This document shows positions 27,847 through 63,025 of a stretch of DNA of 64,000 nucleotides, one piece after another. Both the position numbers and the translations under genes were made by a program. Source of the DNA: Mycobacteriales bacterium (lineage in GTDB: Bacteria > Actinomycetota > Actinomycetes > JAFAQI01). Position 1 is the stretch's first letter. Each line of letters begins with the position of its first letter. The notes under the pieces are model-generated. The model did no database searches and was not told the DNA's origin. It saw only the letters and a program-made list of their open reading frames with translations. The stretch lies in contig DASZRO010000065.1 in NCBI GenBank assembly GCA_035550055.1, positions 1 to 64,000 of the forward strand, written 5' to 3'.

Positions 27847-27851
27847 CGACG

Positions 27852-36170: not shown

Positions 36171-36341
36171 ATGAGTGGCATGGACAAGGCCAAGAACCTC
36201 GGCGAGTCGGCGAAGGGCAAGGCCAAGGAGAGCATGGGTCGCGCGGTCGGCAACGAGTCGATGACCGCCGAAGGCAAGGTCGACAAGGCCAAGGGCAACC
36301 TCAAGCAAGCGGGCGAGAAGGTGAAGGACGCCGTCCGCTAA
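36171..36341 (+). CDS. CsbD family small stress protein
   Basis: 56 aa from the ATG at 36171 with a strong SD (GAGGAGGGA) nine nt upstream. It is Lys/Gly/Ala-rich and helical, with CsbD features: MDKAKNLGESAKGKAKESMG, NESMTAEGKVDKAKGNLKQA. CsbD-like proteins are abundant general-stress proteins of unknown mechanism. Its stop overlaps the convergent amidohydrolase stop by four nt. Confidence 0.88.
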   Translation: MSGMDKAKNLGESAKGKAKESMGRAVGNESMTAEGKVDKAKGNLKQAGEKVKDAVR

Positions 36342-43449: not shown

Positions 43450-43501
43450 CGGAGGCTGCGGGCAGGAAGCCGGCGGCACCGCACCGAAGTTGAGCGACGT
43501 G

Positions 43502-46811: not shown

Positions 46812-47603
46812 GTGGAAACGCACGAGCTGGCGGACAAGGTCGCGATCGTCACCGGAGGCGCGGGAGGCATCGGTCGGGCGACAGCGATCGCGCTGGCGGC
46901 GGAGGGCGCGCAGGTCGTGATCGCCGACGTCGACGCCGAGGCCGGCAACGCGTTGGCGGACGATCTCGGTGAGGTGGCGGCCTTTCACCGGACCGATGTG
47001 AGCGACATCGACCAGGTGCAGGCCGCCGTCGACTTCGCGGTCGCTCGCTTCGGCGGGCTGCACATCATGTTCAACAACGCCGGGGTCGGGAGCGCGCTGA
47101 AGCGGCTCCTCGACGACGACTTCGAGGACTACGACCGGATCGTCGGCATCAACCTGTTCGGGGTGATCGCGGGGACCCAGCGGGCGGCGCGCCACATGAA
47201 AGACCACGGCGGCGGCGTGATCATCAACAACGCGTCCATCGCCGCGATCAACGCCGGCGCCGGGATGATCGCCTACCGCGCATCGAAGGCGGCGATTGTG
47301 CATGCGACGAAGTGCATGGCGATCGATCTCGCGCCGTACCGCATCCGGGTCAACTGTCTGACCCCCGCCCACATCCGCACCGGCATCACGACCTACGACA
47401 TGGGTCCGGTGCTCGAGTACATGCAGCCCTACCCGCGGGAGGCGCAGCCGGAGGACGTCGCCAACGCGGTCGTGTTCCTTGCCGGTGACCGGGCGGCGCA
47501 GATCACCGGCGTCGTCCTGCCGGTCGACGGCGGCACCACGGCCGGCAACTCGATGGCGCAGACCAGGCTGATCATGAGCCAGGCCACCAAGCCACGCGGC
47601 TAG
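46812..47603 (+). CDS. Short-chain dehydrogenase/reductase (catabolic locus)
   Basis: 263 aa classical SDR with TGGAGGIGRATAIAL (cofactor), NNAGVG, and the catalytic region NNASIAAINAGAGMIAYRAS followed by Lys. The C-terminal GVVLPVDGGTTAG is typical of NAD-dependent alcohol dehydrogenases. It ends one base before the convergent P450 gene of the catabolic locus and may oxidise a hydroxyl introduced by one of the oxygenases, but it is on the other strand and this link is inference. Confidence 0.9.
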   Translation: METHELADKVAIVTGGAGGIGRATAIALAAEGAQVVIADVDAEAGNALADDLGEVAAFHRTDVSDIDQVQAAVDFAVARFGGLHIMFNNAGVGSALKRLLDDDFEDYDRIVGINLFGVIAGTQRAARHMKDHGGGVIINNASIAAINAGAGMIAYRASKAAIVHATKCMAIDLAPYRIRVNCLTPAHIRTGITTYDMGPVLEYMQPYPREAQPEDVANAVVFLAGDRAAQITGVVLPVDGGTTAGNSMAQTRLIMSQATKPRG

Positions 47604-47604
47604 G

Positions 47605-48888
47605 TCAGCGCGGGGCGAAGTCCAGGTACAGCGTCTGCAGGCCGCGAAGGAAGAACGTCGGCAGGTAGTCGTAGGTACGCGCGTCCGGTGCTCCGTGGCG
47701 GTCGCCGCTGATCGCGATGTTGCCGGTGCGCTCGAGGAAACGCTCGACCGTCACGCGCCCTTCGGTGCGGGCCAGCGGCGCGCCGGCGCACGTGTGGATG
47801 CCGTGCCCGAACGCGATGTGCTGGCGCGCGTTGGAGCGGTGGATGTCGAACTCGTGCGGGTTGTCGAAGGTCCGCGGATCCCGGTTGCACGCGCCCGGGA
47901 GCAGCATGACCGTGCTGCCGGCGGGCAGCTCCACCCCGCCGAGCGTGGTGCGGACCCGGGTCATCCGGAACTGGCTGCGCAGCGGGCTCTCGAGCCGCAG
48001 GGTCTCCTCGATGAAGTTGGGGATCAGCGCGGGGTCGTCGCGTACCAGCTTCTGCAGGTCCTGGCGCTCGCCGAGCATTCGCAGCGCGAAGCCGATCATC
48101 CGCACGGTCGTCTCCTGACCGCCGACGAAAAGGTTCGCGGCGATCAGCGCCGCATCTTTGACGTCCGGCGTCGAGCCGTCGGGGAAGGTCGCGGTCGCCA
48201 GGCCGGTCAGCACGTCGCCGCGCGGCTCGCCGCGGCGGTCCTCGATGTACTCGGCGAACCGGTCGTAGAGGAACTCCAGCGGCTTGTGCTGCAGCCCGTC
48301 CGAGACGGTCGACAGGTGCTCGCGAAACGACTCGTGGTCCTCCTCCGGCACCCCTTCGAGGTCGGCGATGACGGTGAGGGTGAACGGCTCGGCGAACGAG
48401 GAGATCAGCTCACAGCTGCCGCCGTCGACGAACACATCGAGCAGCGCGTCGGCGTAACGCCACATGAACTCTTCGTTCGCGCGCAGCCGCCCGGGCGTGA
48501 TCAGCCGCATCAGCAGGTGCCGTTGCGCGGTGTGGTACGGCGGATCGAACGACGGGATCTGGTCGCTGAAGGGCAGCTCGTCGCGGCAGGCCACGATCAC
48601 GTCGGTGATGTCGTCGCCCTCGACCGCTCGGGAGAACTTCACGAACGGTCCGCTCACGGTGTTGCACGAGGAGTAGGTGCCGGACGCGGCCTCGTGCTCC
48701 GGGAACGTCGCCGGGTCGCGGTAGATCTCCTTGGCCTCGGCGTGTCCGGTGATCATGTACGCGCCGAAGTGCGGCTCCTGCCACACCGGTCCCTGTTCGC
48801 GCACCCAGTCGAAGTACGGGTAGGGGTCGGCTTGCACTGCCGCGTCCTTGAAGAAGTTGACGTGCGAGAAGTCGGTGGTGGTCGTCAC
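47605..48888 (-). CDS. Cytochrome P450 (minus-strand operon)
   Basis: 427 aa from the GTG at 48888, which overlaps the stop of the upstream flavoprotein gene by four nt. P450 signatures are the I-helix FVGGQETTVRM, E-x-x-R in EETLRLESPL and the haem loop IAFGHGIHTCAGAPLAR with Cys367. It is a soluble bacterial P450 needing ferredoxin and reductase partners that are not encoded here. Coupling to a KstD-like dehydrogenase suggests it hydroxylates a steroid-like or other cyclic substrate. Confidence 0.92.
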   Translation of the reverse strand: MTTTTDFSHVNFFKDAAVQADPYPYFDWVREQGPVWQEPHFGAYMITGHAEAKEIYRDPATFPEHEAASGTYSSCNTVSGPFVKFSRAVEGDDITDVIVACRDELPFSDQIPSFDPPYHTAQRHLLMRLITPGRLRANEEFMWRYADALLDVFVDGGSCELISSFAEPFTLTVIADLEGVPEEDHESFREHLSTVSDGLQHKPLEFLYDRFAEYIEDRRGEPRGDVLTGLATATFPDGSTPDVKDAALIAANLFVGGQETTVRMIGFALRMLGERQDLQKLVRDDPALIPNFIEETLRLESPLRSQFRMTRVRTTLGGVELPAGSTVMLLPGACNRDPRTFDNPHEFDIHRSNARQHIAFGHGIHTCAGAPLARTEGRVTVERFLERTGNIAISGDRHGAPDARTYDYLPTFFLRGLQTLYLDFAPR

Positions 48889-50564
48889 TTCGTTGCCTCT
48901 TCCCGCGACGTGGCGTGCTTCGCCGCGACGTATCCGAAAACCATGCTGTTGGCGATGCTGCCGCCGGGGCCGAGATAGTGCCGTCCCATCACCGTGGCCG
49001 TCGCGTTGCCCGTCGCGTAGAGACCGGGGATCGGCTTGTCGTCGCTGCCGATGACCCGAGCGTGCTCGTCGGTGAGCATGCCGCCACAAGTCCCGACGTC
49101 TCCAGGCACGACGTCACAGGCATAGAACGGCGCCTCGTCGATCGGCTCGACGCACGGGTTTTTCACCTTGCGGTGCGGATCGCCGAGCGCCTTGTTGTAC
49201 GCCGACTCGCCGCGGCCGAACTCAGGGTCCTTGCCGTCCGCGGCGTACTTGTTGAACGACTCGACGGTCTCGATCAGCCCGTCCGGATCGATGCCGCACA
49301 TCTCGGCGAGCTCGCGCAACGTCGCCGCCCGCTTGATCTTGCCGCTGGCGAGGACGTCCTTGGGGAAGCGGCCGGGGGAGGACCGCACGTGCGCGTAACG
49401 CTTGCGGTAGCGGTCGTCGAAGATCAGCCAGCACGGCACCGCCTTGCTGGTCTTGTCCCTCTCGTACATCGCCTTGCCGACCTCCATGTAGGAGTTCGAC
49501 TCGTTGACGAACCGCTTGCCGGCCGCGTCGACGTAGATGGTGCGCGGCCGCTGGCGGGCCTGGTCGAGGGTGTTCTGGCCGAACTTGCCCGATCGCGGCG
49601 ACGGCAGCCACCACGCCTCGTCCATGAGGTCGGTCTTTGCGCCGAGCTTCATTGCGGTGCGGATCGCCTCGCCCGTGTCGCCCGGGTTGGCCATCGACCA
49701 GCGGGCCGTGTTGGGTTGGTCCCCGCTGAACTCGCTGCGCATCTCGCGGCTCTGTGCGAAGCCCCCCGTCGAGAGCAACACGCCGTCGCGGGCGCGGACG
49801 TTGACCGGAGTGCCGTTGCGAAGCACTCGCACGCCGACCACCCGCTCGTTTTCGACGAGAAGGTCGTCGAGGGGTGCGTCCGTCCACACTTCGACGCCGC
49901 TGGCGAGCGCGATCTTGAGCGCCTGCCCGATGAAGGAGGCGCCGTTGGTGAGGAGATCCTGGCGGCGCACCTTCGCCCACGTCGTGCGCATGGCGACCCG
50001 GGCGGAGGTGGCGAACGCCTTGACGCTGCGGTTGTAGTGCGACAGGTAGCGGGCCTCGTTGGTCATCACCGCCATGCCGAGGTGCTTGGCCATCCCGATC
50101 TGCACCTTGCCCGACCAGGCCCCGAGCTGATGGCCGTCCCACGGCACGGGCTCGACGCCGCGACCCATGTCACTGCCGCCCTTGGCGTCGGAGTAGTAGT
50201 CGCTGTAGCCCGGGCAGTAGACGAACTTCACGCCTTTGGCTTCCAGGAAGTCGATCATCTCCGGGCCTGCCGTGCAGAACGCGTGGCGTCGCTCGTGCGA
50301 CGAGGCCGGACCCACGTCGCCGACGACCGCGTCGAAGTAGGCCATGCCGTCCTCGTAGGAGTCCGGCACCCCGGCCCGCTTCATCACCGAGTTGTTGGGC
50401 ACCCAGGCCATGCCCCCGGACATCGCGGTCGAGCCGCCGACGAGCGACTGCTTCTCCACGACGAGTACGTCGGCGCCACGGTCGGCCGCGGCCAATGCGG
50501 CGACCATGCCGCCGCCGCCGGAACCGACCGCGACGAAGTCGACGGTCACATCCCACTCGGACAT
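48885..50564 (-). CDS. FAD-dependent 3-ketosteroid-1-dehydrogenase-like flavoprotein
   Basis: 559 aa, the normal size for KstD-type FAD_binding_2 proteins. The FAD motif is DFVAVGSGGGGMVAALAAAD; VVEKQSLVGGSTAMSGGMAW is characteristic. The C-terminal GLYATGNATATVMGRHYLGP matches the KstD active-site region that carries the conserved Tyr before GPG. A 3-ketosteroid or related cyclic ketone is the natural guess for its substrate, but the family also contains fumarate-reductase-like enzymes. It is divergent from the eight-gene plus operon and coupled (GTGA) to the P450 gene. Confidence 0.87.
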   Translation of the reverse strand: MSEWDVTVDFVAVGSGGGGMVAALAAADRGADVLVVEKQSLVGGSTAMSGGMAWVPNNSVMKRAGVPDSYEDGMAYFDAVVGDVGPASSHERRHAFCTAGPEMIDFLEAKGVKFVYCPGYSDYYSDAKGGSDMGRGVEPVPWDGHQLGAWSGKVQIGMAKHLGMAVMTNEARYLSHYNRSVKAFATSARVAMRTTWAKVRRQDLLTNGASFIGQALKIALASGVEVWTDAPLDDLLVENERVVGVRVLRNGTPVNVRARDGVLLSTGGFAQSREMRSEFSGDQPNTARWSMANPGDTGEAIRTAMKLGAKTDLMDEAWWLPSPRSGKFGQNTLDQARQRPRTIYVDAAGKRFVNESNSYMEVGKAMYERDKTSKAVPCWLIFDDRYRKRYAHVRSSPGRFPKDVLASGKIKRAATLRELAEMCGIDPDGLIETVESFNKYAADGKDPEFGRGESAYNKALGDPHRKVKNPCVEPIDEAPFYACDVVPGDVGTCGGMLTDEHARVIGSDDKPIPGLYATGNATATVMGRHYLGPGGSIANSMVFGYVAAKHATSREEATK

Positions 50565-50576
50565 TCGGGCTCCCGG

Positions 50577-50640
50577 TTGCTACGACTCCGAAGCGAATCT
50601 AACCAGAGTTCATTGACCATTGCTACGAAGCCGAAGTAAT
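50577..50640. repeat. Pair of ~21-bp direct repeats in the divergent control region
   Basis: Copies at 50577-50598 and 50620-50640 share TTGCTACGA, then CCGAAG and a final AAT, starting 43 bp apart (about four helical turns). Between them is AAC-CAGA-GTT (50601-50610), a short inverted repeat. This is the only intergenic space between the two catabolic operons, so the repeats are likely binding sites for the MarR, TetR or another regulator. Confidence 0.65.
50613..50640 (+). promoter_or_regulatory. Candidate promoter of the plus-strand catabolic operon
   Basis: TTGACC (50613-50618), a 16-nt spacer and AGTAAT (50635-50640). The second direct-repeat copy covers the spacer and -10. An SD-like GAGGGAG (50659-50665 region) precedes the ATG at 50670. 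Confidence 0.5.
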
Positions 50641-50669
50641 GTCCGCTCACCGGGAACGAGGGAGTAACG

Positions 50670-51842
50670 ATGGCCGCAGGCTCGCCAGCTCTGACATATC
50701 CGCGGGAGGGACTCGGCGCCCCGAAGGACCGCCACCCCGGCCCCGTGCAGGACTTCGGGCTGCCGGCCGGCACCGAGGTGTTCTCGGCCGACAACCACAT
50801 CTCGCTGTCCGAAGACATCTTCTTCGAGCGAGCGCCGGAGGGCATGAAGGACCGGGTCCCTCGCGTCATGAACGTCGACGGGGGCTGGGTCGTCGGCCTC
50901 GACGGCAAGTCGGTCCTGGTCAAGGAGTTCATCGACGTCCTTCAGCAGTACGACCCGGTGCCCGGCTCGCATGCGGGCGACATCGACGCTCGTCTGGCGG
51001 CGCTGGAGTCCGAGGGCGTGCACAGCGAGCTGGCCTTCCCGAACTCGATCCTCGCGTTGTTCGGCTGGCCCGACCGGGAGGTCCGCGAGACCTGCTTCCG
51101 GATCTACAACGAGTACATCGCGGAGGTGCAGGAGCGTTCCGGCAACCGGATCTACGGCGTCGGGCTCATCAACTGGTGGGACGCGGACGGTGCGCGTCGC
51201 ACGCTGACCGAGCTGAAGGCGCTCGGCCTCAAGACCTTCCTGATGCCGCTCGTCCCGGGAAAGGACGAGGACAAGAAGCCGATCGACTACTGCGCCGCTT
51301 CGATGGACGGCGTATGGGAGGCGATCGAGGAGTCCGGCATCCCGGTGTCGCATCACATCGGCGAGAACCCGCCGCAGACACCGATCGAGATCAACGCGCT
51401 GCAGGTCGGGATGTTCCAGTCGGTCGCGCCGTTCCGCGACACCTTCGGCAAGTACGTCCTCGGGGGCATTCTCGACCGCCACCCCGGCCTCAAGATCGGC
51501 TACTTCGAAGGCGGCATCAACTGGGTGCCGTCGGCCATCCAGGACGCCCAGCACATCTGCGCGTCGTTTCGGCACATGCAGGACACCGAGATCAAGCTGG
51601 ATCCGCAGGAGTACTGGGACAAGCACTTCTACGCGTCGTTCATGCTCGACCCGCTCGGCCTGTCGATGGTCGACCGCATCGGTGCCGACAAGGTGATGTG
51701 GTCGACGGACTTCCCCCACAACGAGAGCACGTACGGCTACAGCAACGAGTCGCTCGGCTCGGTGATCGACGCCGTCGGCGTCGACCGCGCGATCGACATC
51801 GTCAGCACGAACGCCCGGCGCTACCTGGGCATCTCGGCGTGA
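50670..51842 (+). CDS. Amidohydrolase family 2 protein (first gene of catabolic operon)
   Basis: 390 aa TIM-barrel Amidohydrolase_2 protein. The N-terminal metal motif is VFSADNHISLSEDIFFERAP (D-x-H). Further motifs are IPVSHHIGENPP, LKIGYFEGGINWVPSAIQDA and DKVMWSTDFPHNESTYG, which carries the conserved Asp. Homologues include decarboxylases and ring hydrolases; the substrate is unknown. It resembles the 36.3-kb paralogue in the D-x-H start and the closing D(F/Y)PH motif. It starts the plus operon, 19 nt before the first M24 gene. Confidence 0.85.
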   Translation: MAAGSPALTYPREGLGAPKDRHPGPVQDFGLPAGTEVFSADNHISLSEDIFFERAPEGMKDRVPRVMNVDGGWVVGLDGKSVLVKEFIDVLQQYDPVPGSHAGDIDARLAALESEGVHSELAFPNSILALFGWPDREVRETCFRIYNEYIAEVQERSGNRIYGVGLINWWDADGARRTLTELKALGLKTFLMPLVPGKDEDKKPIDYCAASMDGVWEAIEESGIPVSHHIGENPPQTPIEINALQVGMFQSVAPFRDTFGKYVLGGILDRHPGLKIGYFEGGINWVPSAIQDAQHICASFRHMQDTEIKLDPQEYWDKHFYASFMLDPLGLSMVDRIGADKVMWSTDFPHNESTYGYSNESLGSVIDAVGVDRAIDIVSTNARRYLGISA

Positions 51843-51861
51843 CGCGGGCGGACCTCGACAG

Positions 51862-53088
51862 ATGACCGCCGGTCTCATGGCGGCGGCTCCGACTCGGTTC
51901 TCGGGCCCGCCCGATTTGGCGCGGATGCGCAAGGACCGCATCGAGCGGGTTCGTGCCGCGATGCAGGAGCAAGGCGTCGACGCCGTGGTGCTGTCGGGCA
52001 ACACGAACGTCGTCTACGCGACCGGAGCGATCTGGCCCTTCGCCGACGAGAGCCGGACGACGTTCGAACGGCCGGTCGCGGTTGTGGTGGCCGACGACGA
52101 TGTGCCGCACCTGTTCACGCCTCTTCGCAGCGACGACCGGTTGCGCTCGGGGCTGCCCGCGGACCACGTCCACGGCCCTGCGCTGCTCGACTTCGACGAG
52201 GGAGTGGATCTGTTCCTGCCGAAGCTCGCCGACCTGGTGCCGGCCGGCGCCGTGGTCGCCTTCGACGAGTGGACCCACCCGCTGCGGCGTACCGAGATGT
52301 TCCTGGGCCCTGCCGGCTCGCCCGTGGACGGCGGCCGGATCATCAGCCGCGCCAAGCTGCGCAAGACCCCCGACGAGCTCGCCTGCATGCGCGAGGCGCT
52401 GCGGATCATGGAGGTCGGCATCGCGCAGGTGCAGGAGCGCCTGGCGCCCGGGGTGCGCCAGGTGGACCTGACGGCAACGTTCCTGCAGACGATCTTCGAG
52501 GCCGGCGCCGACGCGAACATCCTCGACCCGATCTGGCAGGTGATGCCCAACAGCGTCGCCGAGGGCCCCTGGACGACCACGGGCGACCTCGCCCTGCCGC
52601 TGCTGTCGACCACGCGGGAGCTCGTCGAGGGTGACGTCCTGTGGGTCGACCTCGGCATGAGCTACGAGGGTGTCCACACCGACTTCGGCCGGACCTGGAT
52701 CGTCGGACGAGAGCCCAACGACGTCCAGCGCGCCCAGTTCGAGCGGTGGCGCGCGATCCTCGACGCCACGCTGGCCGTCACCCGCGCCGGCGCGCGCAAC
52801 AGCGACCTCACCGCCGCAGCCACGGCCGCGAACGGCGGCAGCAAACCGTGGCTGCCGCACTTCTACCTCGGTCACGGCCTGGGCATCGACAGCGCCGAGA
52901 TGCCGTTCGTCGGCAGCGACATCGGCGAAGACTTCGACGCGTCGTACGTCCTCGAAGCCGGAATGGTGCTCGTGCTCGAGCCCGTGGTGTGGGAGGACGG
53001 CCAGTGCGGCTATCGCTCGGAAGAGGTCGTCCTGATCACCGAGGACGGCTGGGAGCCGCTCACCGACTATCCGTACGACCCGTTCTGA
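51862..53088 (+). CDS. M24-family metallohydrolase with intact metal site
   Basis: 408 aa. A creatinase-like N-terminal domain (about 20-170: VDAVVLSGNTNVVYATGAI) precedes the 'pita-bread' domain. All five metal ligands are readable: Asp263 and Asp274 in VDLGMSYEGVHTDFGRTW, His338 in YLGHGLGID, Glu373 in LVLEPVVW and Glu387 in GYRSEEVVLIT. M24 proteins include Xaa-Pro peptidases, creatinase and the DMSP lyase DddP; its ending ITEDGWEPLTDYPYDP recalls the DddP ending from memory. In this operon a non-peptide substrate is more likely than a dipeptide. A degenerate M24 partner begins seven nt downstream. Confidence 0.85.
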   Translation: MTAGLMAAAPTRFSGPPDLARMRKDRIERVRAAMQEQGVDAVVLSGNTNVVYATGAIWPFADESRTTFERPVAVVVADDDVPHLFTPLRSDDRLRSGLPADHVHGPALLDFDEGVDLFLPKLADLVPAGAVVAFDEWTHPLRRTEMFLGPAGSPVDGGRIISRAKLRKTPDELACMREALRIMEVGIAQVQERLAPGVRQVDLTATFLQTIFEAGADANILDPIWQVMPNSVAEGPWTTTGDLALPLLSTTRELVEGDVLWVDLGMSYEGVHTDFGRTWIVGREPNDVQRAQFERWRAILDATLAVTRAGARNSDLTAAATAANGGSKPWLPHFYLGHGLGIDSAEMPFVGSDIGEDFDASYVLEAGMVLVLEPVVWEDGQCGYRSEEVVLITEDGWEPLTDYPYDPF

Positions 53089-53095
53089 GGACCGC

Positions 53096-54226
53096 GTGAC
53101 CGACACCGAGACACGACCTGACGCCGCCGGACTGCGCAACGCGCGGCGACAACGCGTCCTGGAGGCGATGGACGCCGCCGGGATCGACATCCTGATCTCC
53201 GGCCGGGAGCCCAACGCCCGCTACATCGCCGGCGTGCCGCGGCTGTGGATCAACGGGTCGAGGCCGTTCGGCCCCGGCTGCGTCATCGAGCGTGCGACCG
53301 GTTCCATCCACATCGTCAGCACGTGGGACGAGGGGGTGCCGGCGGACATCCCGCACGAGAACCTGCATGGCATCACGTTCAACGGCGCGAACACGCTGGC
53401 CTGGCTGACGAAGGTCGAGGGTGCCGCCACGGCGAAGACCGTCGCGACGGACGGGCTGATGCCCTCGACGCTCGGCCTGGTTCGAAAGGCCTTTCCCGCG
53501 GCTGAGCTCGTCGACGGCGAGCAGCTGATGCGCACGGTGCGCGCCGTGAAGCTGCCCGACGAGATCGATGCGATCCGGCATGCGGTCCGCATCGCGGAAA
53601 GCGCGCTGCTCGCGGCAGAGGGTGCCTTGCGGGCAGGCGTGACCGAGCGACAGCTGACCGGGGTGTTCATGAGCCACATGGCCGAGGCGGGCGTGACGAC
53701 CCCGAGCACGCAGGACGTCGCCTGGATCACCTCGCGTACGAGGCCGTGGGCGCGCACCAGCCGGGACGCCGCGGTCGGCGCCGACGACCTGGTCGCTCTC
53801 GACGGCGGTGTGCTCGCGGACGGGTACGTCGGAGAGGTCGGTTGGACGGCCGCGATCGACGGGGTCGCCAAGGTGGGCGGGCCGCTGCTCGCCAAGTGGG
53901 ACGAGCTGTGGGAAGGCCTGCTGGCCGCATGCCGGCCGGGCAACCCGGCGTCGGCGCTGCTCGACGCGTACGCCGCAGCCGGGCTGCCCGCGCCGCCGAT
54001 GCCGATCGGGCGCGGGCTGGGCAACGGCAACGACATGCCGCTGGTGCTCGCCGAGCTGCCCGCCACCGCCAAGGACTTGCGGCTGGAAGCCGGGATGGTG
54101 CTGGCGGTGACCGCCTACGTCTGGGCCGACGGCGTCGGTGCGCTCTATGGCAAGGCGCCGGTCGCGCTGACCGATGCCGGGCCAGAGCTGCTGTCGGTGA
54201 AACCTCTCCGCGAGCTGAGGAGCTGA
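53096..54226 (+). CDS. M24-family protein with degenerate metal site (probable pseudo-metalloenzyme or creatinase-like)
   Basis: 376 aa with the same two-domain layout as the preceding gene (N-terminal IDILISGREPNARYIAGVPR; pita-bread domain from about 170). Only the first ligand is kept (Asp236 in ALDGGVLADGY). The second is Glu247, the His is Arg306 (IGRGLGNGND), the first Glu is Thr339 (LAVTAYVW) and the last reads ALYGKAPV. It should not bind the usual two metals. It may be a metal-independent enzyme, as creatinase is, or a regulatory or structural partner of the intact M24 protein encoded just upstream. Confidence 0.8.
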   Translation: MTDTETRPDAAGLRNARRQRVLEAMDAAGIDILISGREPNARYIAGVPRLWINGSRPFGPGCVIERATGSIHIVSTWDEGVPADIPHENLHGITFNGANTLAWLTKVEGAATAKTVATDGLMPSTLGLVRKAFPAAELVDGEQLMRTVRAVKLPDEIDAIRHAVRIAESALLAAEGALRAGVTERQLTGVFMSHMAEAGVTTPSTQDVAWITSRTRPWARTSRDAAVGADDLVALDGGVLADGYVGEVGWTAAIDGVAKVGGPLLAKWDELWEGLLAACRPGNPASALLDAYAAAGLPAPPMPIGRGLGNGNDMPLVLAELPATAKDLRLEAGMVLAVTAYVWADGVGALYGKAPVALTDAGPELLSVKPLRELRS

Positions 54227-54229
54227 CCG

Positions 54230-55195
54230 GTGACCGACGTACCCGCGCCCGAGGACATCATCCGGTACGAGAAGGACCCCGAGACCCGCATCGCGACCAT
54301 CACCTTCGACCGGCCCGACCATCTCAATGCGCCGACCATCGGTGCTCGCAAGCGCTACGGCGACCTGATCTTCAAAGCCAGCCTCGACGATGACGTCAAG
54401 GTGTTGGTCGTCCGCGGCGAGGGCGAGCATCTCGGCACCGGGGCAGACCTCGACGAGCTGATGGCCAAGCGCAAAGGCGGCGTCGCCATGGCCGAGGAGT
54501 TCGGCATCAGCGACGAGGACGACGTCACGATGCCGGATCGCCACAACTACCGCAACGGCGCCTCGCTCGTGCACTGGTACGCCGACGCCCGCTCGGGCAA
54601 CCGCAGTCTCGCCGACTTCAAGAAGATCAGCATTCTCGAGGTCAAGGGCTACTGCTACGGCTGGCACTTCTACCAAGCGGCGGATGCCGATCTGGTGATC
54701 TCCTCCGACGACGCACTGTTCGGCCACCCGGCGTTCCGGTACGTCGGTTACGCGCCGCGGATGTGGCAGTGGGCGACCGTGATGGGACTTCGAAAGTTCC
54801 AGGAGATGGTCTTCACCGGCCGTCCGTTCACCGCCGCGGAGATGGCGGACTGCAACTTCGTCAACAGCGTGGTGCCACGCGCCGAGCTCGAAACCGAGGT
54901 CGCGAAGTACGCCCTTGCGTGCTCCAACACCCGCAACACCGACACGATCTTCATGCAGAAGACGTTCTTCAACATCATGAAGCAGCACCAGGGCGAGTAC
55001 ATGGGCAGCATGATGAGCGCCTGGCTGGAGTCGATGACCGGCGCGCTCCGTGAGGACGTCGAGCGCTCCGAAGCCGGACTCGGGGGCAAGATCGCCGAAG
55101 GTGGGGTCAACAAGCTGGTCAAGGACAACGACAGCCGGTTCCCGCCGGAGTGGCGACTGTCCCGGTCGGGTCGCGAGCAGCCTCCCGCCGAATGA
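54230..55195 (+). CDS. Crotonase-family protein lacking both hydratase glutamates
   Basis: 321 aa, longer than classical enoyl-CoA hydratases. The crotonase fold is recognisable (ATITFDRPDHLNAPTIGARK, oxyanion segment GEHLGTGADLDELMAK, VKGYCYGWHFYQAADADLVI, FGHPAFRYVGYAP). At the two catalytic Glu positions I read Tyr (GWHFYQ) and Ala (GHPAF). It is therefore unlikely to be a plain hydratase and may catalyse C-C cleavage, hydrolysis or isomerisation of a CoA thioester. The insert at about 80-125 is unusual. It starts at GTG 54230, three nt after the M24 gene, and its stop overlaps the CoA-transferase ATG. Confidence 0.82.
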   Translation: MTDVPAPEDIIRYEKDPETRIATITFDRPDHLNAPTIGARKRYGDLIFKASLDDDVKVLVVRGEGEHLGTGADLDELMAKRKGGVAMAEEFGISDEDDVTMPDRHNYRNGASLVHWYADARSGNRSLADFKKISILEVKGYCYGWHFYQAADADLVISSDDALFGHPAFRYVGYAPRMWQWATVMGLRKFQEMVFTGRPFTAAEMADCNFVNSVVPRAELETEVAKYALACSNTRNTDTIFMQKTFFNIMKQHQGEYMGSMMSAWLESMTGALREDVERSEAGLGGKIAEGGVNKLVKDNDSRFPPEWRLSRSGREQPPAE

Positions 55196-57528
55196 CGAGT
55201 CCTGCACCGCTGGCCGGTCGCCGCGTGGTCGACCTGTCGACCTGGATCGCGGGCGGCTACTGCACCAAGCTGCTCGCCGACGCCGGCGCCGACGTGGTCA
55301 AGGTCGAGCCTGCCGGCGGCGACCCGTTGCGGCGGTGGTCGGCCTCCCGCGCGGTGATCGCCCCCGACGCAAACGGGGCCCTGTTCAACTTCCTGCACGC
55401 CGGAAAGCGCGAGCATCTCGCCGCCCACGCCGCAGAGGTCGAGGCCCTTCTCGACGCGGCCGACCTCGTCGTGTGGTCGCCCGGCTCCGCACTCACCGCG
55501 GATCCTGCGCTCGCACCGGCCGCGATCTCGGCGCGCCACCCCGACGCCCACATTGCGTCGATCACGCCGTTCGGGCTGACCGGACCGTGGACCGGCCGTC
55601 CGGCGACCGAGTTCACCCTCCAGGCGTGGTCCGGGGGGATGGTCGGGCTCGGTCGCGGCTACCCCGATCGCGCGCCGGTTCACGTCGGAGGCCAGATCGG
55701 GGAGTGGCTAGCCGGCGTCGTCGCAGCCGTCGGAGCCGTCGCCTCGCTGCGTCGTGACGGCACCGGCGAGATCATCGACGTATCCATGCTCGAAGTCCTG
55801 GCGTTGTGCCTGACCTACTACCCGGTGACCTACCACGACCAGATGGGCCGTCCGATGCGCAAGCGACGGTTCGTGCCGTCGCCGGGTGTGGCGCAGGCGT
55901 CGGACGGCATGGTGGGACTCGGCGTCGGCACCGGTCAGCAGTGGTATGACTTCTGCGCGATGGTCGGTCACCCGGAGTGGATGGATGACCCGAAGCTGTT
56001 CCTCGACCGGACGTCGCTGATGCCGACGATCGACGCCTGGATCGCCGAGCAGAAGGTGGATGCGCTGCTCGAGCTGGCATCCGCGTTCCGGATCCCGAAT
56101 GCGCCGCTGGTCAACGGCGCCAACGCGACCACCTTCGAGCACTTCCGGGCGCGCAACGCGTTCGTGTCCAACCCGGTGGACGGCGCGGTCAATCCCGGCC
56201 CGCCGTACCGCATCTCGCCGGCGTCGGACCAGCGGCGCGAGCCCGTTGCGCCGAGCCCGACCGATGCCGACCACAGCCTGCCGTTGCGCGGTCTGCGCGT
56301 GCTGGAGATGACCGCGTTCTGGGCCGGGCCGCTCGTCGGCAGCATCCTCGGCATGCTCGGCGCCGAAGTGATCCACCTCGAGTCCACCGCACGTCCCGAC
56401 GGCGCGCGGCTGATCGGCGGGATCCCCCAGACCACCGATCAGTTCTGGGAGCGCGGCCCGATCTTCGCGGCACTGAACACGAACAAGTCGAGCCTCACCA
56501 TCGACCTGGGCACGCCACGGGGGGTCGAGGTGCTCGAACAGCTGGTCGCAACCTGCGACGTGGTGGTCGAGAACTTCACCCCGCGAGTGCTCGACCAGCT
56601 CGGCCTGGACTACGAGACGTTGCGCCGGAAGCGGCCGGACCTGGTGATGGTTCGCATGCCCGGTTTCGGTCTCGACGGGCCGTGGCGCGACGGTGGCGCG
56701 TTCGCCTTCGTGATCGAGGACGCCTCCGGCCTGACCTGGCTGACCGGGTATGAGGACAAGCTGCCGATCGAGCCCTACTGCGTCGGGGACCCGAACGCCG
56801 GGCTGCACGCGGTCCTCGCGTTGCTGCTGGCGCTCGAGCACCGCGATCACACGGGCGAGGGTTGCCTGGTCGAAGCCGCGATGGTCGATGCGGCGCTGAG
56901 CGTCGCGGCGGAGCAGGTCATCGAGTACTCCGCCTACGGCAACCTCCTCCAACGCGACGGCAACCGCGGTCCGATGGCCGCGCCGCAGAACGTCTACCAG
57001 GCCGCCGGCCCTGACGAGGAGGGCAGGGACGACTCATGGGTCGCGATTGCGGTGGCCACCGACGAGCAGTGGTTGGCGCTGCGGGCCGCGATCGGTGAAC
57101 CCGAGTGGGCATCGGGCTCCGCGCTCGCGACCGCGGCGGGACGTCGCGGCGCGCAGGACGAGCTCGACGGCCATCTCGCCGCCTGGTGTCGCAGTCGTAC
57201 GGCGGATGAGGTCGTGGATCTGCTCTGGCCGGCCGGCGTACCCGTTGCCAAGGTGATGCAGCCGCATCAACAGCCGGATCTCCCACCGGTGGCGGCCCGG
57301 GGCTTCTTCGAGACGTTGGAGCATCCCGTGGTCGGGGCTTGCCGCTACAGCACGCTGCCGATGCGGCTGTCCAACGGACCCGCGGCGATGCAGCGACGGG
57401 CCGCTCCGCTGTTGGGGGAGCACAACGACGCGCTGCTCACCGAGCTCGGGCTCAGTCGCAGCGAGATCGACGAGCTGGCCGCTGCCGGGATCATCGGCAA
57501 CTCGGTTGCTGCGGTGGGGGGTCACTGA
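55192..57528 (+). CDS. Double-length CaiB/BaiF (family III) CoA-transferase
   Basis: 778 aa from the ATG at 55192 overlapping the crotonase stop. Two complete family III domains are fused head to tail. Copy one (about 1-360) begins APLAGRRVVDLSTWIAGGYC; copy two (about 365-770) begins LPLRGLRVLEMTAFWAGPLV, with VVENFTPRVLDQLGLDYETL. Copy two has Asp533 (CVGDPNAGL) where the family's catalytic Asp is expected. The matching place in copy one reads HVGGQIGEW, without Asp. The chain may fold as an internal version of the interlocked homodimer with one active site. It likely activates the substrate acid by CoA transfer. Confidence 0.88.
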   Translation: MTSPAPLAGRRVVDLSTWIAGGYCTKLLADAGADVVKVEPAGGDPLRRWSASRAVIAPDANGALFNFLHAGKREHLAAHAAEVEALLDAADLVVWSPGSALTADPALAPAAISARHPDAHIASITPFGLTGPWTGRPATEFTLQAWSGGMVGLGRGYPDRAPVHVGGQIGEWLAGVVAAVGAVASLRRDGTGEIIDVSMLEVLALCLTYYPVTYHDQMGRPMRKRRFVPSPGVAQASDGMVGLGVGTGQQWYDFCAMVGHPEWMDDPKLFLDRTSLMPTIDAWIAEQKVDALLELASAFRIPNAPLVNGANATTFEHFRARNAFVSNPVDGAVNPGPPYRISPASDQRREPVAPSPTDADHSLPLRGLRVLEMTAFWAGPLVGSILGMLGAEVIHLESTARPDGARLIGGIPQTTDQFWERGPIFAALNTNKSSLTIDLGTPRGVEVLEQLVATCDVVVENFTPRVLDQLGLDYETLRRKRPDLVMVRMPGFGLDGPWRDGGAFAFVIEDASGLTWLTGYEDKLPIEPYCVGDPNAGLHAVLALLLALEHRDHTGEGCLVEAAMVDAALSVAAEQVIEYSAYGNLLQRDGNRGPMAAPQNVYQAAGPDEEGRDDSWVAIAVATDEQWLALRAAIGEPEWASGSALATAAGRRGAQDELDGHLAAWCRSRTADEVVDLLWPAGVPVAKVMQPHQQPDLPPVAARGFFETLEHPVVGACRYSTLPMRLSNGPAAMQRRAAPLLGEHNDALLTELGLSRSEIDELAAAGIIGNSVAAVGGH

Positions 57529-58154
57529 TGGCGCGCGCGAACGGTTCTCGCGGCGGTGGGTTCGAGCCGGCCCCCTTCGACGTCGTCGAGGCATCGCGTC
57601 GGGTGTGGGAACGGCACTGGGACGCCGAGTCGGCGTCCGGGATGGCGGTGTTCACCGCGATCCTGCGCTCCTACCAGCTGCTGGCGGACGAGGTGGAGCG
57701 AGTGATGCGCAGCCACGAGCTGACCTTCGCGCGGTACGAGGTGCTCACCTGGCTCATGACCGATCCGGAGTCCTCGCTGACCTTGAGCTGGATCAGCAAG
57801 ACGCTGCGGATCCCGCCGGCGACGGTCACGAACATCATCGACCGCCTCGAGCAGGACAAGCTGGTACGCCGAGTGGCACACCCGTCGGACGCGCGCACGA
57901 CGCTCGCCGTGATCACCCAACGCGGCCGCCGGGTGGCGAGTGCGGCGACCGAAGACCTCAATGACAACGTGTACGCGCGCATCGGCCTCGACGAGTCGCA
58001 GCGGCGCGAGCTCACCGACCTGCTGGCGACGTTGCGGGCCAGTGGCAACGAGTTCGACGTCGAGCGCTCGGCGGAGGTGGTCGAAGAGGTCGGGACGCGG
58101 CAGGCGCGCAAGCCGGTCGGCGGCCGGTCGAAGCGTGAGCACGACGTGGCATAG
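57528..58154 (+). CDS. MarR-family transcriptional regulator
   Basis: 208 aa from the ATG at 57528, sharing one base with the CoA-transferase stop (TGATG). The winged helix contains FARYEVLTWLMTDPESSLTL, ISKTLRIPPATVTNIIDRLE, then VRRVAHPSDARTTLAVITQR for the wing. Unlike most MarR genes it lies inside the catabolic operon rather than at its edge. It would be expected to sense the substrate or its CoA ester and control the divergent region at 50.6 kb, but no site can be assigned. Confidence 0.9.
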   Translation: MARANGSRGGGFEPAPFDVVEASRRVWERHWDAESASGMAVFTAILRSYQLLADEVERVMRSHELTFARYEVLTWLMTDPESSLTLSWISKTLRIPPATVTNIIDRLEQDKLVRRVAHPSDARTTLAVITQRGRRVASAATEDLNDNVYARIGLDESQRRELTDLLATLRASGNEFDVERSAEVVEEVGTRQARKPVGGRSKREHDVA

Positions 58155-58164
58155 GAGCGAAGGC

Positions 58165-59523
58165 ATGGCGGAGAAGAAGACGAAGGCATCGCGGGTGCCG
58201 TATGCGATGGAGGTGCCCGACCGGATCCGCAAGGAGCGCTACTACGACCGTGAGTTCTTCGAGCTCGAGGCCGAGCAGCTGTGGCCGCGGGTGTGGCAGA
58301 TGGCCTGCCGGCTCGAGGAGATCCCGAACCCCCGTGACTTCGCCACCTACGAGATCCTCGACCAGTCGGTGATCGTCGTCCGTCAAGACGACATGAGCGT
58401 GCGTGCCTTCCACAACGCGTGCCGCCACCGTGGTGTGCGTCTGGTCGAAGGCCACGGCACCAGCACGAGCGGCTTCACCTGCCCGTTCCACGGCTGGTGC
58501 TATGCGTCAGACGGCGCCAACACGTTCATCTCGCGGGCGGGCACGTTCTCCGAGGCCAACCTCGACCCGGCGCAGGTCGGCCTTCAGCAGGTGCGTTGCG
58601 AGACGTGGGGAGGGTGTGCCTGGATCAACCTCGACCCGAAGGCACCGGACCTACGGGCGAGCATCGAGCCATTCGCGACGTACATGGACGCCTGGCAGCT
58701 CGACAACATGCACCCGGAGTGGTGGTACTCCTTCCGGCTGCCGGTGAACTGGAAGCTCGCGCAAGAGGCGTTCATGGAGCAGTACCACGTGCTCGAAACG
58801 CATCCGCAGCTACGGCTGCCGGGCCGCTACCCCGCCAAGAACAAGCCGTTCGACCAGCAGGCCTTCCTCGACGCCGAGCTCACCTACCTGCAGGTGATGA
58901 GCGAGGGCATGGCGGGGATGGTCCACGCGAACGACGTCAAGGTCGCGGCGCGCATCATGCCGAAGACCACCCTGCCCGCCGACCCGGTCCAGGCGCGGGT
59001 CGCCTGGGAGCGCACCCTCAACGACGCGGTGGTCAAGTGGCATCGCAGCAAGAAGCATCTGATCCCGGATCTCAACCAGATCGAGGACGACGGCCTCACC
59101 GAGCCGATGGTCTACTGCTTCCCGCACTTCTTCATCCTGCCGATGTACAGCAGCGCATCGCAGTACCGGTTCCGGCCGATCGGACCGGAGGAGACGCTGA
59201 TGGAGATCTGGTCGTTGACCAGGTTCCCGGACGGTGCGCCCTTGCCGAAGCTGCCGGTCCCGGAGCCGATGGCGCACGACGACCCGCGGGTGCCCCCCAT
59301 CCCGACCCAGGACTTCTCGAACCTGCCGAAGCAGCAGCTCGGGCTGCACTCGCGCTCCTTCGAGTTCATGCGGATCTCGGCGCAGATCGAAGGGCACCTG
59401 TCGAACTTCCATCGCACGATCGACGGTTATCTCGAAGGCCTGCCCAGCAAGAAGCTGCTCAAGGCCCACCGGCAGCTCAACATCAACCCCCTCGAGCGGC
59501 CGATCGTCGACCTCGGTCTCTAA
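58165..59523 (+). CDS. Rieske non-haem iron oxygenase, large (alpha) subunit
   Basis: 452 aa from the ATG at 58165. The Rieske [2Fe-2S] ligands are Cys86-x-His88 (CRHRG) and Cys106-x2-His109 (CPFHGW). The mononuclear iron His pair is His208 and His213 in QYHVLETHP. It needs a ferredoxin/reductase, and no small subunit is encoded nearby, as in KshA- or one-component-type systems. It would hydroxylate or dihydroxylate a ring in the cytoplasm. It begins ten nt after the MarR gene. Confidence 0.92.
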   Translation: MAEKKTKASRVPYAMEVPDRIRKERYYDREFFELEAEQLWPRVWQMACRLEEIPNPRDFATYEILDQSVIVVRQDDMSVRAFHNACRHRGVRLVEGHGTSTSGFTCPFHGWCYASDGANTFISRAGTFSEANLDPAQVGLQQVRCETWGGCAWINLDPKAPDLRASIEPFATYMDAWQLDNMHPEWWYSFRLPVNWKLAQEAFMEQYHVLETHPQLRLPGRYPAKNKPFDQQAFLDAELTYLQVMSEGMAGMVHANDVKVAARIMPKTTLPADPVQARVAWERTLNDAVVKWHRSKKHLIPDLNQIEDDGLTEPMVYCFPHFFILPMYSSASQYRFRPIGPEETLMEIWSLTRFPDGAPLPKLPVPEPMAHDDPRVPPIPTQDFSNLPKQQLGLHSRSFEFMRISAQIEGHLSNFHRTIDGYLEGLPSKKLLKAHRQLNINPLERPIVDLGL

Positions 59524-59572
59524 TATCATTCGTGCCAGACCTCTGGCGCCAATCTATGAGCGAGGTGACGTT

Positions 59573-60772
59573 GTGACGATCTCCGCCGAAGCCCCGCCGT
59601 ACTACGACCCGTACGACATCGAGCTGGCGAACGACCCGTACCCGATGTGGCGGCGGCTGCGGGACGAGTCGCCGGTCTACTACAACGACAAGTACGACTT
59701 CTACGCGCTGAGCCGCCACGCCGACATCTCGACATGGCTGCCCGAGTGGGAGACCTTCTCCTCGGCGCGCGGCGTGATCATCGAGCTCATCAAGGCAAAC
59801 CTCGAGCTGCCGTCCGGCACGCTGATCATGGAGGACCCGCCGGTCCACGACATCCATCGCAACCTGCTGGTGCGGGTGTTCACGCCGCGCCGGATCGCCG
59901 CCATCGAGCCACAGGTGCGCGCCTACTGCGCCCAACACCTCGACCCGCTGATCGGTGAGGAGCGCTTCGACCTGATCGCGGAACTCGGCGCGCAGATGCC
60001 GGGCAAGGTGATCGGCATGCTGCTCGGCATTCCCGAGCAGGACCAGGCCGCCGTCCGCGCGCACGTCGACAACAACCTGCGCACCGAGGCGGGCGAGCAG
60101 ATGGTGGTCAACGACGCGTCGTTCGCCGAAGGCGACATCTTCGCCGACTACATCGACTGGCGGATGAAGAACCCGTCGAACGACCTGATGACCGACCTGC
60201 TCAACGCGGAGTTCGACGACGAGCACGGCGTACGCCGCAAGCTGACCCGCCAGGAGGTGCTCACCTACGTCGCCGTCGTCGCCGGCGCGGGCAACGAGAC
60301 AACCACCCGACTGATCGGCTGGATGGGCTCGCTGCTCGCCCAGCATCCGGACCAGCGGGCGGCGGTCGTCGCGGACCGGTCGCTGATCCCCAACGTCGTC
60401 GAGGAGACGGTTCGCTACCAACCGCCCGGTCCGCACGTCGCCCGTTACGTGGCGAGGGACGTCGAGATCCACGGCGTCACGGTCCGCGAGGGCAGCGCCA
60501 TGCTGTTCCTGCTCGGCTCGGGCAATCGCGACGACCGGGTCTACCCGAACGGCGACACCTACGACATCCACCGGCCGCTGAGCCAACACCTCGGCTTCGG
60601 CTACTCGGTGCACTACTGCATGGGAGCCGCGCTCGCCCGGCTCGAGGGCCGGGTCGCCCTCGAAGAGATCCTCGAACGCTTCCCGACGTGGGAGGTCGAC
60701 TGGGACGGCGCGAGGCTTGGCTCGACCTCGACCGTTCGCGGCTGGGAGACGCTACCGATCGTCGTCGGCTGA
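59573..60772 (+). CDS. Cytochrome P450 (plus-strand operon)
   Basis: 399 aa from the GTG at 59573. The I-helix is VVAGAGNETTTRLIG, with E-x-x-R in EETVRYQP. The haem loop reads LGFGYSVHYCMGAALARLEG with Cys349; the usual F-G-x-G has Ser at the second Gly. It is a soluble oxygenase whose redox partners are not local. The 49-nt gap before it holds a small AT-rich stretch (TAATAT at 59521-59526) that could be an internal promoter. The 3' end overlaps the convergent TetR gene by 21 nt. Confidence 0.92.
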   Translation: MTISAEAPPYYDPYDIELANDPYPMWRRLRDESPVYYNDKYDFYALSRHADISTWLPEWETFSSARGVIIELIKANLELPSGTLIMEDPPVHDIHRNLLVRVFTPRRIAAIEPQVRAYCAQHLDPLIGEERFDLIAELGAQMPGKVIGMLLGIPEQDQAAVRAHVDNNLRTEAGEQMVVNDASFAEGDIFADYIDWRMKNPSNDLMTDLLNAEFDDEHGVRRKLTRQEVLTYVAVVAGAGNETTTRLIGWMGSLLAQHPDQRAAVVADRSLIPNVVEETVRYQPPGPHVARYVARDVEIHGVTVREGSAMLFLLGSGNRDDRVYPNGDTYDIHRPLSQHLGFGYSVHYCMGAALARLEGRVALEEILERFPTWEVDWDGARLGSTSTVRGWETLPIVVG

Positions 60773-61401: not shown

Positions 61402-61890
61402 GTGCCCATGGCATCCGCCGTTGTGCCGCCGGAGACGGCGCAGCAGCTGGCGACCGACCTGCTGCGCTCGGTCGGTCAGCGGGTGACCAAGCCTCGGGTC
61501 GCGGTGTTGTCCTGTGTCCTGGCTGCCAGGGAAGAGCACCTGTCCGCGGAGCTGCTGCTGGAACGGGTGACCGCGGCCGACGCGTCGGTGCATCGCGCGA
61601 CCGTCTATCGCACCCTTGACGGGCTCGCGGCCGCCGGCGTGCTGCAACACGTCCACCTCGATCGCGGGCTGACCGCCTACCACCTCGCCGAGTCGGTGGG
61701 GGAGCATCGCAGTCCACCGCACCTGCACGGGCAGTGCGCCCGCTGCGGCCGGATCGTCGACTTCCCTGCAGACGTGATGGAGCAGGCCGTCGATCGGGTC
61801 GAGCGCGCCACCGGGTTCGCGCTGGACCCGGCGCACGTGGCGCTTTCCGGGCTGTGCCGACAGTGCAAGGGGCGGCCCGGCAGCCACTGA
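61402..61890 (+). CDS. Fur-family metalloregulator, probably nickel-responsive Nur
   Basis: 162 aa starting at GTG 61402. The winged-helix domain contains GQRVTKPRVAVLSCVL and HRATVYRTLDGLAAAGVLQH. Metal-site features are PHLHGQCARCG and GLCRQCKG (two CxxC pairs for structural zinc plus clustered His). The assignment to Nur rather than Fur or Zur comes from the next gene, a nickel/cobalt permease, and from the TTGC-N9-GCAA-type operator between them. When nickel is sufficient it should repress the permease. Confidence 0.85.
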   Translation: MPMASAVVPPETAQQLATDLLRSVGQRVTKPRVAVLSCVLAAREEHLSAELLLERVTAADASVHRATVYRTLDGLAAAGVLQHVHLDRGLTAYHLAESVGEHRSPPHLHGQCARCGRIVDFPADVMEQAVDRVERATGFALDPAHVALSGLCRQCKGRPGSH

Positions 61891-61893
61891 CGC

Positions 61894-61916
61894 TAGTTGC
61901 GATATGGTCGCAACTA
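61894..61916 (+). promoter_or_regulatory. Nur-type operator overlapping the permease promoter
   Basis: TAGTTGCGA-TATGG-TCGCAACTA is a perfect 9-5-9 inverted repeat. Its core TTGCGA-N5-TCGCAA fits the Streptomyces Nur box TTGCaa-N5-ttGCAA as I recall it. TATGGT (61903-61908) inside it could be the -10, seven nt before the ATG at 61916. Confidence 0.72.
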
Positions 61917-63025
61917 TGGTCCGGATCGACCGCGTGAGGAACGCGCTGACGCGCGAGGAGTGGCTGCGGGTCGGGCTGATGGGAGCCGCTGTTGTAGCGC
62001 TCTACGTGGTGGGCTTCGCCCTCCTGCTGTCGGCGGTCGGCCACCACTACGTCCTGTCGAGGTCGGGTGCGAAGGTCAAGATCTTCGGGGTCGGCACCGG
62101 CGTACTCGCCCTCACCCTCGGGATGCGCCACGCCTTCGACGCCGACCACATCGCGGCGATCGACAACACGACGCGCAAGCTGATGGGGGAGGGCCAGCGG
62201 CCCACCAGCGTCGGCTTCTTCTTCTCACTCGGTCACTCGTCCGTCGTGTTCGTGCTCGCGGTGCTGCTCAACTTCGGCATCCGTTCCCTCGACCGCGCGG
62301 TGTCGGACGACGGATCGGGTCTGCACCACGTCACCGGCATCATCGGTACGTCGGTGTCGGGCACCTTCCTGTACCTCATCGCGGCGCTCAACGTCGTGAT
62401 CCTGGTCTCGATCGTGCGCATCTTCCGGGAGATGCGCGGCGGCGCCTTCGACGAGGCCGAGCTCGAACGCCGGCTCGCCCAGCGGGGGCTCATGAACCGG
62501 TTGCTCGGCGGCTTCGCCGAGCGGGTCGACCGCCCCTGGAAGATGTACCCGCTCGGGGTGCTGTTCGGGCTCGGATTCGACACCGCCACCGAGGTCTCGC
62601 TGCTGGTGCTGTCCGGCTCGGCCGTGGCCAGCGGATTGCCGTTCTGGGCGATCCTGTCGCTGCCGATCCTCTTCGCCGCCGGGATGAGCACCTTCGACAC
62701 CCTCGACGGGTGCTTCATGAACTTCGCGTACGGGTGGGCCTTCGCGACACCGATCCGGAAGGTCTTCTACAACATCACGATCACCGGGCTGTCGGTCATG
62801 GCCGCCTTCGTGATCGGCACCATCGAGATCCTCGGCCTGGTCCAGTCGGAGTTCTCCTTCGATGACCCGTTCATGCGGTTCATGTCGAACTTCAACATCA
62901 ACACCGCCGGCTTCGTCGTGGTGGGGCTGTTCGTCGCGGTGTGGGCGATCGCCCTCGCGGTGTGGCACTTCGGCGACGTCGAAGGGCGCTGGGGGTCGTC
63001 ACCCGAACCGGCGTCCTACCGTTAG
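61916..63025 (+). CDS. NiCoT-family nickel/cobalt permease
   Basis: 369 aa from the ATG at 61916, preferred over the in-frame ATG at 61904 because the earlier codon lies inside the operator and -10. It has about eight TM segments. NiCoT signatures are RHAFDADHIAAIDNTTRKLM, FFSLGHSSVVFVLAV, LGFDTATEVSLLVLS and GMSTFDTLDGCFMNFAYGWA. It imports Ni2+ or Co2+ at the cell membrane. The upstream Fur-family regulator and the operator suggest nickel control, and no SD precedes 61916, fitting a leaderless message. Confidence 0.92.
   Translation: MVRIDRVRNALTREEWLRVGLMGAAVVALYVVGFALLLSAVGHHYVLSRSGAKVKIFGVGTGVLALTLGMRHAFDADHIAAIDNTTRKLMGEGQRPTSVGFFFSLGHSSVVFVLAVLLNFGIRSLDRAVSDDGSGLHHVTGIIGTSVSGTFLYLIAALNVVILVSIVRIFREMRGGAFDEAELERRLAQRGLMNRLLGGFAERVDRPWKMYPLGVLFGLGFDTATEVSLLVLSGSAVASGLPFWAILSLPILFAAGMSTFDTLDGCFMNFAYGWAFATPIRKVFYNITITGLSVMAAFVIGTIEILGLVQSEFSFDDPFMRFMSNFNINTAGFVVVGLFVAVWAIALAVWHFGDVEGRWGSSPEPASYR

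Follow-up and report, generated by a model that had tools for sequence, protein, structure and literature searches.

A five-gene core conserved across genera and classes

Positions 46812 to 60772 of a 64,000-nucleotide stretch of contig DASZRO010000065.1 from a Mycobacteriales bacterium (the whole stretch is referred to here as the window) contain two facing operons built around a core of five genes, which encode an amidohydrolase-like protein (AH), two M24-fold proteins (M24a and M24b), a crotonase and a double class III coenzyme A (CoA)-transferase (double CaiB, or CaiB2). These five genes recur in the same order in 26 loci besides the window, in the host's relatives, in Mycobacterium and in another class; the locus is real, tightly organised and far from chance, and is common to many mycobacteria and other actinobacteria. 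From its gene families we tentatively read it as a possible CoA-linked and O2-dependent module, under MarR control, that would degrade a bulky alicyclic carboxylic acid, probably polycyclic and of isoprenoid type.

When re-read from the sequence, the genes with their strands, overlaps and gaps agreed with an earlier note on this DNA (the original prediction), including the gene content of the two operons, the gaps of 3–19 nt between plus-strand genes and the 49 nt that precede the second cytochrome P450 (P450b). Pfam supported every named gene where a family was tested. Start codons were picked by reading frame, overlap and homology (GTG at 48888 for the first cytochrome P450, P450a; ATG at 58165 for the Rieske gene; GTG at 59573 for P450b). 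The genes are as follows.

46812..47603, plus strand: short-chain dehydrogenase/reductase (SDR) oxidoreductase (PF13561/PF00106), convergent with P450a
47605..48888, minus strand: P450a, cytochrome P450 (PF00067), heme motif FGHGIHTCAG
48885..50564, minus strand: KstD-like FAD dehydrogenase (PF00890)
50670..51842, plus strand: AH, amidohydrolase-like protein (PF04909, E = 2.7e-21)
51862..53088, plus strand: M24a, M24-fold protein (Pfam)
53096..54226, plus strand: M24b, M24-fold protein (Pfam)
54230..55195, plus strand: crotonase (PF00378)
55192..57528, plus strand: double CaiB, class III CoA-transferase (PF02515, two domains, 526 bits)
57528..58154, plus strand: MarR-type regulator, identified by direct reading of the sequence; its ATG overlaps the CaiB stop codon
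58165..59523, plus strand: Rieske ring-hydroxylating oxygenase alpha subunit (PF00355 and PF00848), 452 residues, CxH at 86-88 and CxxH at 106-109
59573..60772, plus strand: P450b, cytochrome P450 (PF00067)

From AH to P450b the plus-strand spacings are 19, 7, 3, −4, −1, 10 and 49 nt, on the minus strand the KstD-like and P450a genes overlap by 4 nt, and the convergent SDR and P450a genes are 1 nt apart. The heme motif of P450b, FGYSVHYCMG, has Ser at the position of the usual Gly, which is Gly in the orthologue of one mycobacterial locus (L045).

The co-conservation of an oxidative, CoA-dependent unit suggested in the original prediction was borne out: the two M24 genes, the crotonase and the double CaiB were found alongside AH, with the order kept, in the host's own family, in Mycobacterium and, from another class, in the genomes G1015 and G1177, where a core locus was one in which all five proteins shared >45% identity with the window and where co-occurrence is conditional on M24b, the bait with which the loci were retrieved. 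M24b itself was detected in five of 13 genomes of the host order (host included). Among sampled genomes it occurred in 32 of 395 from the host class and in 225 of 298 from Mycobacterium, the genus to which we assign G090 and the genome of L045; in the class of G1015 it was detected in 26 of 296 genomes. This assignment to Mycobacterium is based on the very large number of PE-family genes in G090 and G345, on the full-length match of the L045 P450 to CYP105Q4, and on a Mycobacterium branderi plasmid on which a ferredoxin, a P450, AH, M24a and M24b stand in a row. A contig scan with M24b as the single query gave distant loci only.

Around this core the gene content changes. The KstD-like, P450a, MarR and SDR genes accompany it in the host family, G1015 and G1177, with 73–85% identity for P450a, 75–81% for MarR (62–72% in loci L090 and L101) and 76–80% for the SDR in family-mates. 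An SDR orthologue also stays beside the core at the same end of mycobacterial loci (46–55% identity), which add a ferredoxin, a CYP105Q-type P450, a TetR regulator and further SDRs, and often a P450b orthologue (58–60% identity) adjoining a mycofactocin-type SDR; acyl-CoA dehydrogenase and AMP-ligase genes lie near several of them. The Rieske gene is missing from most related loci, and the Rieske, KstD-like and P450a genes from most mycobacterial versions. The oxidative genes had been grouped with the core as one set, which describes the window; across genomes, however, the Rieske, KstD-like and P450a genes appear from the comparison to be a variable shell. In G1015, the SDR, P450a, KstD, AH, M24a/b, crotonase, CaiB2 and MarR share 60–78% identity with the window, whereas the core genes of Mycobacterium, although from the same class as the host, share only ~46–65%. 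The closer relationship to G1015 therefore suggests block transfer, as if the genes were inherited or transferred as a unit.

The amidohydrolase-like protein resembles dinuclear oxygenases

The nearest relatives of AH of solved structure are PtmU3 (E = 2e-32), of platensimycin/platencin biosynthesis (PDB 6omp), and DitZ of Rhodococcus rhodochrous (PDB 8uyr; E = 6e-26), the next match reaching only 4e-07. A fold search with an AlphaFold2 model (mean pLDDT 85, low confidence at residues 351–356) again placed PtmU3 at the top and manganese-substituted DitZ second, followed by several decarboxylases. The metal ligands of the related AibH2 are D25, H27, H211, E265, D337 and H340, together with the acidic D342, which corresponds to E313 of PtmU3 (PMC7782822); their equivalents in AH (D41, H43, H229, E280, D347, H350 and E352) were invariant in 21 of 21 sequences. 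More diverged PF04909 proteins (22–27% identity), encoded beside M24 pairs in genomes from the class of G1015, retain the ligands in every segment that could be read, the N-terminal segment of five of them being missing from the extraction. AH had been called an amidohydrolase, and its membership of PF04909 stands, but on ligands, structural matches and modelled fold it is very probably an amidohydrolase-related dinuclear oxygenase (ARO) of the PtmU3/DitZ type. In 10 of 22 tested loci the gene immediately before M24a, on the same strand, is AH-like, an adjacency that should be rare by chance because PF04909 genes number 18 to 86 per genome (nine non-host genomes counted), the loci themselves not being independent.

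A second PF04909 protein is encoded elsewhere in the window (36338-37531, minus strand); it is strongly DitZ-like (8uyr, E = 4.7e-76; PtmU3, 1.8e-36), has the same ligand motifs and neighbours genes for a TauE-type exporter, an FMO/BVMO-like flavoprotein and an SDR.

A metal-binding M24 protein and its probable degenerate partner

M24 enzymes are dimers with shared active sites. In M24a all five metal ligands (D263, D274, H338, E373 and E387) were present in 57 of 57 sequences. In M24b the aligned residues of the window are D236, E247, R306, T339 and K353, and among homologues these positions hold mixtures such as S/D/A, E/G, H/R, T/S/Q/E and R/Q; aspartate at the second site occurred in none of 58 sequences, so that a full ligand set (0/58) is impossible. 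A model of M24b (pLDDT 88.9) nevertheless matched the folds of prolidase, creatinase and DddP. In every one of the 58 loci the two genes lay next to each other, in order and on the same strand, and their distance matrices (26 core loci and the window) correlated at 0.955 versus 0.77 to 0.88 for other core pairs, shared species ancestry adding to all of these values. The description of two M24 proteins therefore holds for the fold of both, but the metal site of M24b is lost, and M24b is in all likelihood a degenerate partner of the metal-binding M24a in a functional M24a/M24b complex, judging from the residues and the pairing.

A second M24a/M24b set is present in some mycobacterial genomes (including those of L064, L065 and L073), in most cases together with AH; the CoA-transferase next to it in L064 and L065 is only ~30% identical to that of the window, which suggests a parallel pathway. 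In five further loci (L006, L007, L057, L059 and L114) no AH was recognised next to the pair, which frequently adjoins a P450 or SDRs, and the pair may therefore have a wider role.

Unusual CoA-transferase and crotonase active sites

For the C-terminal half of the double CaiB the closest match is chain B of benzylsuccinate CoA-transferase, BbsEF (PDB 9fn0), and the N-terminal half also matches chain A. The two CaiB halves thus have their counterparts in the two BbsEF subunits, only one of which has the catalytic acid position, but the window protein is a single fused chain in which the position of the catalytic Asp is Glu140 in the N-terminal half and Ala505 in the C-terminal half, both invariant in 15 of 15 sequences. 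By alignment it resembles BbsEF fused into one protein, with Glu in place of the Asp of the catalytic half. In the crotonase, rightly described before as unusual, both hydratase glutamates are absent, their positions (placed by our own reading of the alignment) being Tyr148 and Ala168, the latter Ala or Ser in homologues. Since both catalytic glutamates are replaced, a role as a simple hydratase is unlikely; the surrounding segment is strongly conserved, with Y141, W145, H146, Y148, H166, R170 and Y171 invariant.

A putative MarR operator

Between the divergent KstD-like and AH genes lie two copies of an imperfect 20-bp palindrome with the consensus TTACTACGANNTCGTAGTAA.

50577..50596, plus strand: second, weaker operator copy TTGCTACGACTCCGAAGCGA, with 3 mismatches to the pattern
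50620..50639, plus strand: putative MarR operator TTGCTACGAAGCCGAAGTAA, just after TTGACC

The same pattern was found upstream of AH in L035, L037, L038, L090 and L101, the copy in L101 being near-perfect, and hence in six of six MarR-type loci including the window. In nine mycobacterial loci none was found upstream of AH: eight had no match within four mismatches, and the ninth had one four-mismatch site, inside the AH gene. No match occurred in 100 shuffles of the window. The palindrome-bearing loci carry MarR and the mycobacterial loci TetR, and because the palindrome accompanies the former and not the latter it is most simply read as a MarR operator, though a putative one. Scanned for consensus promoters, the intergenic region between KstD and AH gave no site at the thresholds used.

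The KstD-like protein and steroid degradation

Among PDB entries, the KstD-like protein matches AcmB of Sterolibacterium (7p18) best; its Tyr123/124, Tyr359 and Tyr530 align with tyrosines of that enzyme. It scores 777.3 bits against the NCBIfam model of 3-ketosteroid-delta-1-dehydrogenase (PRK12844), just under the cut-off of 789. At a cut-off of E 1e-60 the host genome contains no other match of this kind. The KshA family (PF19298) was not found in the host (G000) or in two relatives that carry the locus (G005 and G012); it is present in G011, G1015, G1177 and Mycobacterium G090. A 9,10-seco steroid route of the canonical type is therefore unlikely in the host (an assembly of 3.5 Mb and 122 contigs, 98.75% complete), although incomplete assemblies may account for some of the missing matches. 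No extradiol ring-cleavage dioxygenase Pfam family was seen among the locus genes.

Proposed function and alternative readings

Gene content and order, co-conservation, ligand and active-site patterns, the obligate M24a–M24b pairing and the palindrome accompanying MarR are supported by the sequences compared here, and from them we infer the substrate class, the catabolic direction, the order of reactions and the ring-breaking enzyme. In the proposed pathway, the P450s, together with the Rieske oxygenase in the window locus, would hydroxylate the ring system, the SDRs would turn ring alcohols into ketones and the KstD-like flavoprotein would put a ring double bond beside the ketone. The double CaiB would transfer CoA to the carboxylate, after which the PtmU3-like dinuclear enzyme may hydroxylate the acyl-CoA, probably beta to the thioester, which would make a retro-aldol-type ring C–C cleavage possible. 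M24a/M24b, with metal in M24a only, and the hydratase-incompetent crotonase might carry out the cleavage or a later hydrolysis. A more specific version, in which the M24a/M24b heterodimer would work with the dinuclear oxygenase as a single ring-cleavage device of a kind not described before, the oxygenase placing a tertiary beta-hydroxyl on a CoA-thioester alicycle and the M24 pair breaking the C–C bond by retro-aldol or hydrolytic chemistry, is a speculative idea that we consider rather unlikely. Of the steroid- or terpenoid-like substrates originally suggested, the terpenoid-like class is favoured by analogy, because the nearest solved relatives of AH are PtmU3 and DitZ; the steroid part fared less well where the classical pathway is concerned, KshA being absent from the searches of the host and of two locus-carrying relatives.

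Several points weigh against the degradative module. Beyond the conditioning on M24b and the contribution of ancestry noted above, no CoA ligase, extradiol dioxygenase, thiolase or transporter was identified within the locus, which on these grounds would be an incomplete pathway; no small AibG-type Rieske ferredoxin, common although not universal in AROs, adjoins the AH gene, the sole Rieske protein at the window locus being the 452-residue oxygenase alpha subunit, with a 4Fe-4S-type ferredoxin instead in mycobacterial loci; and PtmU3 works in biosynthesis (PMC7782822). The last point leads to an alternative in which the locus is a biosynthetic or tailoring cluster acting on an isoprenoid or polyketide-derived CoA ester. 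PtmU3, which AH matches best in the PDB, does come from a biosynthetic cluster (PMC7782822), and multiple P450s and the mycobacterial ferredoxin–P450 pairs typify tailoring (PMC6237146), yet no terpene synthase, polyketide synthase, nonribosomal peptide synthetase or glycosyltransferase was recognised in the locus, its families are oxidative and CoA-handling, with the acyl-CoA dehydrogenase and AMP-ligase near several mycobacterial versions, and DitZ is named after the diterpenoid-degradation (dit) genes; we hold this reading to be unlikely.

Equally unlikely is a steroid or bile-acid catabolic branch, in which the KstD-like protein would act on a 3-ketosteroid and the other genes on ring or side-chain CoA esters. 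The high score to the dehydrogenase model, AcmB as closest relative and the aligned catalytic tyrosines speak for it, but the score falls short of the family cut-off, KshA (here its KshA_C domain) was not found in the three carriers named above, the KstD gene lies outside the Mycobacterium five-gene core, and the PtmU3/DitZ relatives indicate terpenoid acids; classical steroid degradation was ranked lower for the want of KshA in the host. For AH alone, it is improbable that the protein is an ordinary mononuclear enzyme of PF04909, whether decarboxylase, hydratase or hydrolase, that acts late in a pathway of ring cleavage: the family includes such enzymes (PMC10811679) and decarboxylases follow in the fold search, but every AibH2/PtmU3 ligand is kept in all 21 sequences, including the acidic equivalent of PtmU3 E313, and the E-values to PtmU3 and DitZ are about twenty orders of magnitude better than those to decarboxylases. 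The evidence from ligands and fold put this reading lower in the ranking. That the genes are merely neighbours, functionally independent of one another, we regard as highly improbable; the absence of the Rieske, KstD-like and P450a genes from most mycobacterial versions is consistent with it, but against it stand the overlapping stops and starts, an order kept across genera and a class boundary, the conserved putative operator and the obligate M24 pairing. We thus retain the degradation module as our tentative reading.

Relation to known systems

The combination had not been recognised originally as a described pathway, and literature searches on DitZ, the gene-family combination, CYP105Q4 and clusters of M24 with CoA-transferase genes, with subscription journals mostly outside their scope, likewise yielded no description of the locus. 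One close link to a studied system is to the CYP105Q4/Fdx9 locus of Mycobacterium marinum (MMAR_4763 is Fdx9). The CYP105Q4-like P450 of L045 matches the CYP105Q4 structure (PDB 8swl) over all 414 residues (814 bits) and shares its locus with the same AH–M24a–M24b–crotonase–CaiB2 core, whereas in this mycobacterial form a TetR regulator, a 4Fe-4S-type ferredoxin and CYP105Q replace the MarR, KstD-like, P450a and Rieske genes of the window. CYP105Q4 has a solved structure and no substrate was found for it (PMC6237146); the locus gives it a defined partner set. Since roughly three in four of the Mycobacterium genomes sampled have M24b, the locus would represent a widespread mycobacterial capacity without an assigned role.

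PtmU3 is like AH in sequence, fold and all metal ligands, and takes CoA-ligated substrates in diterpenoid biosynthesis (PMC7782822), yet identity over the fold alignment is 24%, the gene neighbours differ and its context is biosynthetic, the activity of AH being a predicted one. The dit clusters of DitZ, the second-best match, also contain a P450 (DitQ) and a ring-hydroxylating dioxygenase (DitA) (PMC13063091), and differ from the window locus in the extradiol dioxygenase, which was not seen in the latter. Creatinase, DddP and the ectoine hydrolase DoeA are M24 non-peptidases of known chemistry that resemble M24b in fold and match M24a in sequence; the window differs in its strict pairing of a metal-binding with a degenerate protein, no such pair having been found described. 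Should the PtmU3-like enzyme and the M24 pair prove to act in the proposed way, many annotations of ‘amidohydrolase’ and ‘Xaa-Pro peptidase’ in actinobacterial catabolic clusters would be wrong.

The enzyme with which Pseudomonas abietaniphila forms 5-hydroxy-dehydroabietic acid is unknown (PMC13063091); a DitZ/PtmU3-type oxygenase, if the strain has one, would by analogy be a candidate for this 5-hydroxylation.

Neighbouring genes

Just downstream of the locus (61402-63025) are a gene for a FUR-family regulator and then one for a NicO nickel transporter. Upstream, adjoining GH20 and GH92 glycoside hydrolase genes occupy 41872-45877, and at 26659-29117 a gene for an imelysin-type protein is followed by one for a DyP-type peroxidase, which resembles an iron-uptake arrangement.

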